49,000 bases of DNA from a virus, in the IMG/VR virus record IMGVR_UViG_3300034521_000392, positions 1 to 49,000 of that record, one strand, 5' to 3'. This document shows positions 43,703 through 46,331 of the stretch, one piece after another (position 1 is the stretch's first letter; every line of letters begins with the position of its first letter). Made by a program: the position numbers and the translations under genes. Under the pieces are notes generated by a model. It searched no databases, was not told where the DNA came from, and saw only the letters and a list, made by a program, of their open reading frames with translations.

Positions 43703-43851
43703 CTCACGCTCACGACGACATCAGGGTTGGCACTCTGTGCCTTCCCTTCATTGGTAACGGCTGGCTAATGCCATGGGGTGAAGTGGTCAGCAATCCATTA
43801 AAGGCGCAGCGGCTCGCTGAGGAATATCGGGAAAGACAGGAGGCAGCATGA
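43699..43851 (+). CDS. DUF1317 protein, lambda Orf61-like
   Basis: A 50-residue protein (MTHAHDDIRVGTLCLPFIGN). The NPLKAQRLAEEYRERQEAA tail matches lambda Orf61 (DUF1317), which lies in the exo-xis interval of lambda. The function is unknown but the gene is conserved in lambdoid early operons. Coupled to both neighbours by overlap. The match to lambda supports the operon's identity as a pL recombination operon. Confidence 0.85.
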   Translation: MTHAHDDIRVGTLCLPFIGNGWLMPWGEVVSNPLKAQRLAEEYRERQEAA

Positions 43852-44600
43852 TTCATTTTCACGGCGGCCCTATTACGCCGGACACATGCGCACTGAAGGC
43901 ATGGAAAGGCAGGCACGCTTTCATTTCCTTCGCCAACCCTGGCCAATTAGCCCTGGCCAGCGAAGTCACCCAGTCTTTCGCGCTGGATAACGGCGCATTC
44001 AGCTTCTGGACGAAAAAGCGCGTTGTTAACTGGAATGACTACTACGCGTTTGTAGGTCGCTGGATGAATCACCCTCGCTTTGCTTTTGCTGTTATCCCTG
44101 ACGTGATCGGCGGGACCAGTGAAGAGAACGACGCGTTAATCGCCGAGTGGCCGCACGGCAAAGTAGTCGGCGCTCCGGTGTGGCACATGAACGAGCCCGA
44201 TGAACGTTTCTTCCGCCTGTGTCGGGAATTTCCGCGCGTATGCATCGGCAGCATGGGTGAATACGACGCGAAGCGCCCGCGCTCATGTCGGGCAAAGTTA
44301 CGCGATCTCATCCGTCACGTTGTCGACATAAACGGTTATCCGATAACAAAGCTTCACGGCCTGCGCATGCTGAACGCCGATATCTTCCGCCATATCCCGC
44401 TGTCGTCAGCCGACAGTACAAACGTTGCGCGCAACATCGGAATCGACAAGGCGTGGGATAAATCAGCCTACGCGCCGGCAAGCAAAGAAACACGAGCTGC
44501 GGTGCTTGTCGAACGCATTGAAGCCTTTAACTCTGCAAGTTCGCTGAATTACGACGCAGAACGCGATCGGTTCACGCCACAACTTGCTTTCGAGGTGTAA
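43848..44600 (+). CDS. Possible TGT-like (DpdA-type) protein
   Basis: A 250-residue protein (MIHFHGGPITPDTCALKAWK). FALDNGAFSFW, PDVIGGTSEEND, and ITKLHGLRMLN recall the conserved blocks of tRNA-guanine-transglycosylase-like DpdA proteins that insert 7-deazaguanines into DNA; the two aspartates would be the catalytic pair of a TIM barrel. No preQ0 synthesis gene lies nearby, so the base would have to come from the host. Two DNA methyltransferases follow. The family call is from remembered motifs and needs a profile search. Confidence 0.45.
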   Translation: MIHFHGGPITPDTCALKAWKGRHAFISFANPGQLALASEVTQSFALDNGAFSFWTKKRVVNWNDYYAFVGRWMNHPRFAFAVIPDVIGGTSEENDALIAEWPHGKVVGAPVWHMNEPDERFFRLCREFPRVCIGSMGEYDAKRPRSCRAKLRDLIRHVVDINGYPITKLHGLRMLNADIFRHIPLSSADSTNVARNIGIDKAWDKSAYAPASKETRAAVLVERIEAFNSASSLNYDAERDRFTPQLAFEV

Positions 44601-44604
44601 TTCC

Positions 44605-45264
44605 ATGACCGGAAAATACTCTCTTATCTACGCAGATCCGCCCTGGTCTTACGGCAACACCATCAGCAACGGGGCTGCTGCCGATCACTATTCCACGATG
44701 AAGCTCATCGACATAAAGCGTCTGCCAGTGTGGGAACTTGCCGCCGAAAACTCGGTGCTGGCGATGTGGTACACCGGCACGCATAACCAGGAAGCTATCG
44801 AACTGGCTGAGGCTTGGGGCTTTAGTGTTCGCACGATGAAAGGCTTTACCTGGGTGAAGCTGAATCAGAACGCTGAACTGCGCATCAACAAGGCGCTGGC
44901 CGAGGGTGAAATCACCGACTTTTACGACTTCCTCGATCTGCTTAACGCCGAGACGCGCATGAACGGTGGCAACCACACCCGGGCCAACACCGAAGACTTG
45001 CTGATTGCTACCCGCGGCGCCGGGCTGGAACGACAGCGCGCTGGCATTAAGCAGGTGGTCTACAGCCCGCTCGGCGCGCACAGCGAAAAGCCGTGGGAAG
45101 TACGCCACCGGCTGGAACTACTTTACGGTGATGTGCCGCGGATTGAGCTTTTCAGCCGCAGCGCGGCGCCAGGCTGGCATCACTGGGGAAATCAGTGCGC
45201 CACCGCTTCCGTTGAGCTGATCCCAGGCTGTGCCATCGACGTTGTGAAGACGGAGGCAGCATGA
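44605..45264 (+). CDS. MT-A70-type adenine methyltransferase
   Basis: A 219-residue protein starting at ATG 44605 (MTGKYSLIYADPPWSYGNTI). DPPW (residues 11-14) is the catalytic motif of N6-adenine methyltransferases of MT-A70 type. AMWYTGTHNQEAIELAEAWG and NHTRANTEDLLIATRG are family motifs. No target-recognition domain or restriction partner is visible, so it is probably an orphan enzyme protecting phage DNA from restriction. It shares a four-base overlap with the cytosine methyltransferase. Confidence 0.9.
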   Translation: MTGKYSLIYADPPWSYGNTISNGAAADHYSTMKLIDIKRLPVWELAAENSVLAMWYTGTHNQEAIELAEAWGFSVRTMKGFTWVKLNQNAELRINKALAEGEITDFYDFLDLLNAETRMNGGNHTRANTEDLLIATRGAGLERQRAGIKQVVYSPLGAHSEKPWEVRHRLELLYGDVPRIELFSRSAAPGWHHWGNQCATASVELIPGCAIDVVKTEAA

Positions 45265-46331
45265 CGCCTACAGCTTACTACAACGAGATCGACCCATTCG
45301 CGGCGCAGTGGCTGCGTAACCTCATAGTCGCCGGGCATATAGCACCGGGCGAAGTTGACGAACGGAGTATTGAAGATGTCACACCTGAAGATCTACGAGG
45401 ATTCACGCAGTGCCACTTCTTTGCCGGAATTGGCGCCTGGTCCCATTCCCTGCGTCTCGCAGGGTGGCCTGACGATAAACAAGTCTGGACTGGCTCCTGC
45501 CCGTGCCAGCCTTTCAGCGCGGCAGGCAAAGGCGATGGGTTTGCTGACGAGCGGCACCTTTGGCCCCACTTCTTCCACCTCATCAGAGAGCGCAGACCTG
45601 AGCATGTCTTTGGCGAACAGGTTGCAGCAGGTAACGCAAACGCATGGTTCGACCTTGTACAAGCTGACCTGGAAGGAGTGGGATACGCCTTCGGGCTTGT
45701 GCCGTTTGCGGCAGCGGGCGTCGGTGCGCCGCACATCAGAGAGCGGGCCTACTGGGTGGCCAACACCAACAGCATCATCAGTGACCGGGGCGGGTACCTC
45801 AGGACGTCAGGGCGGAATGAATATTCAAACGGCTGCGATGATGTCCGGCTGGCCGACGCCGGTCGCGAACGATGCAAGCGGATCAACCCATTGCTACAGC
45901 GGGAAAAATCAAGACGGAACGCCGAAGGTGTGTCTGAAGTTGCCAGGTTCGGTGCTTCTGACAGGCTGGCCCACACCGACAACGAGCAACACTCGATCGC
46001 CATCAGTAGATGCAGCCATGAATATGTATCGGCAGGACGGCAGCAAGACCCAGCAGCGCTTGCAGGACTTCGCAGGGATTGCCGGGCCCTTGAGGTTAAC
46101 GGTTTTTGGCGAGATGCGGATTGGCTTCTTTGTCGAGATGGCAAATGGCGTCCAGTTGAACCCGGCACATTCCCGCTGGTTGATGGGGCTGCCGCGCGCT
46201 TGGGACGAGTCGAGTCCGGGGTGGCAAGAGTGGCAAGCAGCAACCGCGTCGGCCGACTCAAAGGCTATGGTAACGCCATAAACGCACAGGCTGCGGCTGA
46301 ATTTATCCGGGCCTATATGGAGGGGTTATGA
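45261..46331 (+). CDS. C5-cytosine DNA methyltransferase
   Basis: A 356-residue enzyme (MTPTAYYNEIDPFAAQWLRN). Motif I is FAGIG (54-58), motif IV PCQPFS with catalytic Cys82, motif VI FGEQV (117-121; Glu with Gln in place of the usual Asn), motif VIII RERAY with Arg160/162, and motif X GYGNAI (335-340). The region 166-310 is the variable target-recognition part, with repeated VANTNS, LADAG and LAHTD. It probably protects phage DNA. Almost all of it is overlapped by a second long frame. Confidence 0.9.
   Translation: MTPTAYYNEIDPFAAQWLRNLIVAGHIAPGEVDERSIEDVTPEDLRGFTQCHFFAGIGAWSHSLRLAGWPDDKQVWTGSCPCQPFSAAGKGDGFADERHLWPHFFHLIRERRPEHVFGEQVAAGNANAWFDLVQADLEGVGYAFGLVPFAAAGVGAPHIRERAYWVANTNSIISDRGGYLRTSGRNEYSNGCDDVRLADAGRERCKRINPLLQREKSRRNAEGVSEVARFGASDRLAHTDNEQHSIAISRCSHEYVSAGRQQDPAALAGLRRDCRALEVNGFWRDADWLLCRDGKWRPVEPGTFPLVDGAAARLGRVESGVARVASSNRVGRLKGYGNAINAQAAAEFIRAYMEGL
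45376..46281 (+). CDS. Overprinted 301-residue frame inside the cytosine methyltransferase gene
   Basis: In the +1 frame relative to the methyltransferase, ATG 45376 (MSHLKIYEDSRSATSLPELA) has GGAG eight bases upstream. The frame runs 301 codons without a stop. It has three GWPTP repeats spaced about 30-40 residues apart and ends LNPAHSRWLMGLPRAWDESS. I recall this GWPTP/LNPxHSRWLMG pattern as a widespread hypothetical phage family. Either it is a true overlapping gene or a conserved shadow of methyltransferase sequence. No known domain. It needs codon-level comparison. Confidence 0.5.
   Translation: MSHLKIYEDSRSATSLPELAPGPIPCVSQGGLTINKSGLAPARASLSARQAKAMGLLTSGTFGPTSSTSSESADLSMSLANRLQQVTQTHGSTLYKLTWKEWDTPSGLCRLRQRASVRRTSESGPTGWPTPTASSVTGAGTSGRQGGMNIQTAAMMSGWPTPVANDASGSTHCYSGKNQDGTPKVCLKLPGSVLLTGWPTPTTSNTRSPSVDAAMNMYRQDGSKTQQRLQDFAGIAGPLRLTVFGEMRIGFFVEMANGVQLNPAHSRWLMGLPRAWDESSPGWQEWQAATASADSKAMVTP

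Follow-up and report, generated by a model that had tools for sequence, protein, structure and literature searches.

An overlapping frame within a phage cytosine methyltransferase gene

The question raised by this locus is whether a long open frame lying inside a phage cytosine methyltransferase gene, on the same strand and across nearly all of it, is a gene in its own right and, if so, what its product contributes. The window (the whole stretch of 49,000 nucleotides that was analyzed) belongs to IMG/VR virus record IMGVR_UViG_3300034521_000392, and its right end resembles the early region of a lambda-type phage. An earlier note on this DNA had described a 301-codon frame with its own ribosome site and had suggested an overprinted gene pair of unknown function, perhaps tied to the methyltransferase. 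The frame was found as described, running from ATG to TAA (45376-46281, with the stop codon at 46279-46281) in the +1 register relative to the 356-codon methyltransferase gene (45261-46331), with a GGAG at 45364-45367, eight bases 5' of its ATG. The annotated-type frame is here termed alpha and the overlapping frame beta. The three sites at which both frames had been said to repeat a motif were also present, within 1-2 bases of the coordinates first given, and encode GWPTP in the beta frame (45754-45768, 45847-45861, and 45964-45978) and VANTN, LADAG, and LAHTD in the alpha frame. Each beta codon consists of positions 2 and 3 of one alpha codon and position 1 of the next; as the silent third position of alpha is thereby the second position of beta, a change that is silent in alpha almost always alters the beta amino acid. 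The features of the locus are collected in Table 1.

Table 1. Features of the alpha/beta locus, with positions in the window.
Feature	Position	Strand	Basis
Alpha: C5-cytosine DNA methyltransferase, motifs I-VIII, linker, motif X; annotated-type frame	45261..46331	+	PF00145, phrog_363, AF2 model with Foldseek match to M.HhaI
Beta: 301-codon gene overlapping alpha in +1, putative recognition region and motif IX	45376..46281	+	Conserved register, purifying selection, phrog_1008
Beta ribosome site GGAG and start ATG, within alpha codons R-S-I-E-D-V	45364..45378	+	Homologue codon usage
Alpha motif I region (HFFAGIGAWSHSLRLAG)	45414..45464	+	Alignment; position from sequence
Alpha motif IV, catalytic Cys (PCQPFS)	45501..45518	+	Invariant in alignment A5
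Conserved middle of beta, approximately residues 60-125 (GSTLYKLTWK...RASVRRTS), on the DNA of alpha motifs VI-VIII	45553..45750	+	Beta NN/NS 0.24; fourfold divergence mostly 0.2-0.36
Beta W-TP module 1 (GWPTPTASSVTGAG...)	45754..45846	+	Sequence; module cluster 3
Beta W-TP module 2 (GWPTPVANDASGSTHCYSG...)	45847..45963	+	Sequence; module cluster 7
Beta W-TP module 3 with the stretch leading to motif IX (GWPTPTTSNTRSPS...)	45964..46155	+	Sequence; module cluster 0
Beta putative motif IX (LNPAHSRWLMGLPRAW)	46156..46203	+	Alpha fourfold divergence 0.05-0.2; alignment to motif IX of canonical enzymes
Alpha linker, residues 174-337, sharing its DNA with the beta modules and motif IX	45780..46271	+	AF2 pLDDT <50; alpha replacements near-neutral in modules
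Alpha motif X (GYGNAINAQAAAEF)	46263..46304	+	G337 and N338 invariant in A5; HHalign places relatives' motif X

The pair is preceded by an MT-A70 methyltransferase gene, the stop codon of which overlaps the alpha ATG, and is followed by small genes and an integrase gene. A similar order was seen in an E. coli ST361 locus (L396) and also, without alpha/beta, in locus L428. No restriction enzyme gene was noticed beside alpha/beta (the neighbors were not systematically searched), which makes an orphan modification enzyme the likeliest setting. Just upstream of the MT-A70 and C5 genes, the product of 43848-44600 matched phrog_887 (annotated as queuine tRNA-ribosyltransferase; E 6e-95) and had no Pfam match.

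Conservation of the beta frame

One explanation of the beta frame would be that it is a by-product of composition, or of constraint at the DNA or RNA level, from which no protein is made; long accidental frames are common in GC-rich genes, and expression data are lacking. Permutation of the synonymous codons of alpha, however, gave a mean of 5.3 stops in the beta frame, compared with none observed (0/2000 permutations were as low). Across 102 homologous pairs, no beta-frame stops were seen where 4.2 were expected per pair. Only pairs with a long open beta had entered this set; a check free of that bias was made on 80 IMG/VR loci chosen by alpha patterns alone. A beta homologue in the same register was present in all 80, and in 78 of them beta was open through the LNPAHSRWLMG region, a frameshift being found in the other two; among the 78, 16 betas ended in a variable tail past the motif and 3 started a few codons later. 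The other forward frame contained 8-22 stops in the same loci. In a second set, of 80 bacterial genome loci chosen by beta, every beta overlapped an alpha, 79 of them in the +1 register (best hits), and 76 were intact across the conserved part of beta. The remaining 4 were frameshifted, truncated, or decayed, and in three bacterial genome loci (L280, L290, and L305) the alpha matches were split too. Beta had seemed to be missing from L058, L059, and L082, but this was an artefact of alignments that ran upstream of a shifted start. Separately, single frameshifts in L044, L290, and L313 seem to put the C-terminal part of beta, including motif IX, into the alpha frame; these appear to be errors, decay, or natural fusions, which could not be distinguished here.

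Selection on the two frames

Divergence was computed on pairs with 55-80% alpha identity. At alpha fourfold sites it was saturated on either side of beta (0.60-0.71 before the overlap and 0.72 after the beta stop), was about 0.2-0.36 across most of beta residues 60-125, and was only 0.05-0.2 around the beta LNPAHSRWLMG. An OLGenie-like count, in our own implementation, gave a beta NN/NS of 4.7 before the overlap, 0.95 in the N-terminal part of beta (the first 45 or so residues of which are weakly constrained), 0.24 for the middle segment, 0.05 over the motif, and 1.4 past the stop. As the sequence pairs are not independent, these values are descriptive; the contrast, however, lies within one gene and tracks the boundaries of beta. 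Changes at beta third positions were tolerated and those at second positions were not, constraint stopped at the beta stop, and the other forward frame had no such pattern over the conserved blocks. Together with the codon permutations, these observations make a by-product without a protein barely credible.

Two outcomes had been named in advance as refuting an overprinted pair, namely stop codons in this frame in homologous loci that keep the methyltransferase and the absence of excess synonymous constraint. Neither was obtained, as the frame was not lost in homologues and a strong excess of constraint was found, only under conserved beta segments. The idea of an overprinted pair tied to the methyltransferase is thus supported. 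Judged from comparative sequence data, beta encodes a protein and is subject to purifying selection, and we regard the existence of this overlapping coding gene as near certain.

In the module region, beta NN/NS was 0.064 and SN/SS 0.185, and alpha NS/SS was 1.27 and NN/SN 0.44. By these ratios, purifying selection on beta is strong there and amino-acid changes in alpha look neutral, which makes the annotated frame the passenger in the repeat region. As alpha residues there change at an approximately neutral rate, the doubled motif belongs to beta as a repeat, and the VANTN, LADAG, and LAHTD of alpha are a by-product of it.

Probable translation start of beta

The beta ATG was present in 92/95 aligned homologues. 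The Asp-Val pair that bears it used GAT in 92/95, whereas GAT makes up 31% of the Asp codons in the rest of these genes. In the upstream Arg-Ser pair, Arg was encoded by AGG or CGG in 79% (23% elsewhere) and Ser by AGT in 67% (6% elsewhere), a choice of codons that creates the Shine-Dalgarno site of beta. The conserved ATG and this codon bias argue for independent initiation of beta.

Probable distribution of methyltransferase motifs between alpha and beta

Alpha matched phrog_363 ("DNA methyltransferase"; E 1e-92) and, above the cut-off, PF00145 (E 3e-14, residues 74-172), the latter match stopping at motif VIII. Motifs I, IV (PCQ), VI, VIII, and X are found in its one chain, as expected for a PF00145-type enzyme, but that chain lacks a recognition domain and motif IX, the latter being found in the beta frame. 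The AF2 model of alpha was confident for residues 1-172 and 342-356, with residues 174-337 predicted to be disordered (pLDDT <50), and the best Foldseek neighbors of this model were chains of M.HhaI, aligned over the catalytic domain.

Beta, for its part, matched phrog_1008 ("DNA methyltransferase"; E 5.6e-30, residues 36-279) and gave no match in Pfam and PDB sequence searches. Its AF2 model, made for beta alone, was of low confidence (mean pLDDT 59.8, pTM 0.27), so a recognition-domain fold is inferred and not demonstrated. The identity of beta was instead indicated by relatives in which a single open chain (L218, L226, L317, L388, and L315) runs from the catalytic motifs through W-TP repeats to motif X; the repeats and a LNPxWVExLMGFPxGWTD-type motif lie after motif VIII and before motif X, all in the frame of the methyltransferase itself, and phrog_1008 matches fall inside the L218 and L226 chains. 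As L226, L317, and L388 still have a shortened beta frame that ends similarly, the single-chain form looks inherited and not like one sequencing error. On the evidence of these alignments, parts of beta sit at the recognition and motif IX position of single-chain relatives. In HHalign comparisons with canonical C5 enzymes, LNPDWVECLMGF corresponded to motif IX (LTPKECARLMGF), and LGNAV to motif X. The similarity to motif IX is weak by itself (HHalign pairwise E 0.008, probability 5%), and the putative assignment, weak taken alone, rests on collinearity and on the single-chain relatives. The division of motifs also varies: in L187, L219, L220, and L372 alpha is short, stopping after motif VIII, and motifs IX and X follow the recognition region in beta. 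The equivalent motif X segment of Paenibacillus phage Jacopo, by contrast, is encoded in the alpha frame.

It was also possible that the recognition region is made only as a ribosomal frameshift product of alpha, joining motifs I-VIII to the modules, with no separate protein. The order of motifs across the two frames is indeed collinear up to motif IX, and single-chain relatives exist. However, the conserved start and Shine-Dalgarno site of beta lie far upstream of the modules, beta residues 60-125 would be absent from any fusion and are nevertheless under purifying selection, and the type found in the window would need a second shift back for motif X. The first two of these points led programmed frameshifting to be set aside, and it is considered improbable.

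A separate overprinted protein that is not part of the enzyme, such as a regulator or anti-restriction factor, would be compatible with the lack of Pfam or PDB matches to beta alone and with a fold that could not be modeled confidently. It would not explain why single-chain methyltransferases contain the beta modules and motif at their recognition/IX position, nor why alpha lacks just those parts, and among the loci searched no convincing beta without alpha was found. We give this possibility little credence. One candidate stand-alone beta, in L221, proved to be an N-terminally incomplete beta directly downstream of another gene and is not firm evidence.

The reading that we consider highly probable is a two-subunit C5-cytosine methyltransferase made from overlapping genes, the hidden one of which encodes the recognition region and motif IX. 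Alpha would supply the AdoMet-binding and catalytic core, in which a linker of about 165 residues joins motifs I-VIII to motif X. Beta would start at its own ribosome site inside alpha, be translated independently, and supply the target-recognition region (tandem GWPTP modules, three here) and the motif IX missing from alpha; it would then assemble with alpha, and activity would need both. The complex and its activity are inferred, and the absence of expression, binding, or activity data counts against the model. The function of beta can nonetheless be taken, with good confidence, beyond the "unknown" to which it had been assigned, as a recognition region and a motif IX that are absent from alpha. 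As an apparently orphan enzyme of a prophage, it would likely serve to modify phage DNA against host restriction.

W-TP modules

The 303 betas examined carry 1-6 W-TP units each, which fell into 221 clusters with varying positions and neighbors; the beta of the window has three GWPTP units. The number of module strings (203) is somewhat inflated, since the WxTP pattern also picks up a W-TPSG segment before the repeats in some betas. Between the window and the E. coli ST361 locus, the first and last units are common, with the difference lying in between. Phage C5 methyltransferases of the SPR and phi3T type are multispecific, with several exchangeable recognition units. The pattern seen here resembles recognition-unit exchange in these enzymes, by analogy, in that several units per phage enzyme are swapped between phages. 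The present units differ in being about 25-45 residues long, in beginning with W-TP, and in lying in a separate overlapping frame, and their role in specificity is inferred. That the swappable modules would set sequence specificity, with each W-TP unit setting a recognition site, is a hypothesis.

Comparison with two-polypeptide methyltransferases

Lee, Kam, and Shaw reportedly found in 1995 that the small gene of EcoHK31I lies inside the large one in another frame; such a nested second gene is present here and conserved in homologues. M.EcoHK31I and M.AquI are known two-polypeptide C5 enzymes (PMC3404938), and the former (YGGCCR) is naturally split, as also summarized in PMC3439449. EcoHK31I has motifs I-VIII and X on the large polypeptide and IX on the small one (PMC3404938), an arrangement matched by alpha with motifs I-VIII and X and by motif IX on the second polypeptide, although no sequence comparison was made. 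Its recognition domain was, however, predicted in the large subunit (PMC3404938), which counts against the present model. No such large-subunit recognition domain was indicated here, where the constrained recognition-like repeats are in beta and the alpha stretch is near-neutral and predicted to be disordered. The present beta is also longer (301 aa) and modular, and the family, found in phages and prophages, has no evident restriction partner. It is set apart from the known kind by its range, from proteobacterial to Paenibacillus phages, and by recognition repeats in beta that are modular and recombine.

M.AquI (CYCGRG) is similar in that its two polypeptides are split around the recognition region, and in the minority architecture (L187, L219, L220, and L372) the second polypeptide bears the recognition region together with IX and X, as it does in M.AquI. 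Unlike M.AquI, the window has motif X in the alpha frame and genes that overlap across most of beta; IX and X together on the second polypeptide were not found in the window but were in L187, L219, and L372.

Annotation of the pair

Existing annotations place beta in phrog_1008, alpha in phrog_363, and a "Mte8-like protein" in K1 phages, but these are annotations only, and a literature search found no paper explaining the alpha/beta pair. The "phrog_1008" in PMC9409062 proved to be phrog_10089, and the hidden HNH in a phage methylase of PMC11855218 is a different matter, a homing insertion. Both overlapping frames are annotated in the records of K1ind3, PhiXhv-5, and Jacopo, and epsilon15 (L003) carries the pair. 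In Cronobacter phage JC01 (L005) and Salmonella phage W5_chr3 (L007), only beta is annotated (as hypothetical or Mte8-like), and an open alpha is left unannotated. RefSeq/PGAP calls alpha two pseudogene fragments in the E. coli ST361 locus (NZ_CP103704, 2100-3311), where alpha (404 codons) and beta (343 codons) are both open; this call is probably an annotation artefact of the variable middle. EBPR siphovirus 2 (L004, JF412297, 1108-3627) has an apparent intein in alpha motif IV (SCP / CFPAG...VVHN / CQPFS), and as its beta frame opens in the last part of the intein-coding DNA, the N-terminus of beta is replaced there.

Implications for phage methyltransferases

Beyond this locus, it appears fairly probable that a large phage class of C5 methyltransferases, listed in annotations as minimal one-protein enzymes lacking a recognition domain, consists of overlapping two-gene enzymes, in which specificity lies in interchangeable W-TP modules of the overlooked frame and the annotated frame over the same bases is a near-neutral linker, and that frame switches move the class among forms with overlapping genes, partly overlapping genes, and a single chain. 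Few very long same-strand overlaps are known to combine conservation of both frames with an assignable function. Both products would here be parts of one enzyme, with the hidden frame the more constrained across the recognition region. Automated annotation skips or misnames either frame or both, beta being overlooked in most annotations, and the prediction of specificity for many phage C5 methyltransferases would fail until beta is read. Modules common to betas in different orders would offer a natural route to a module-to-recognition-site code, and, given its single-chain and partly overlapping relatives, the family may serve as a sharp case for the origin and resolution of gene overlaps.
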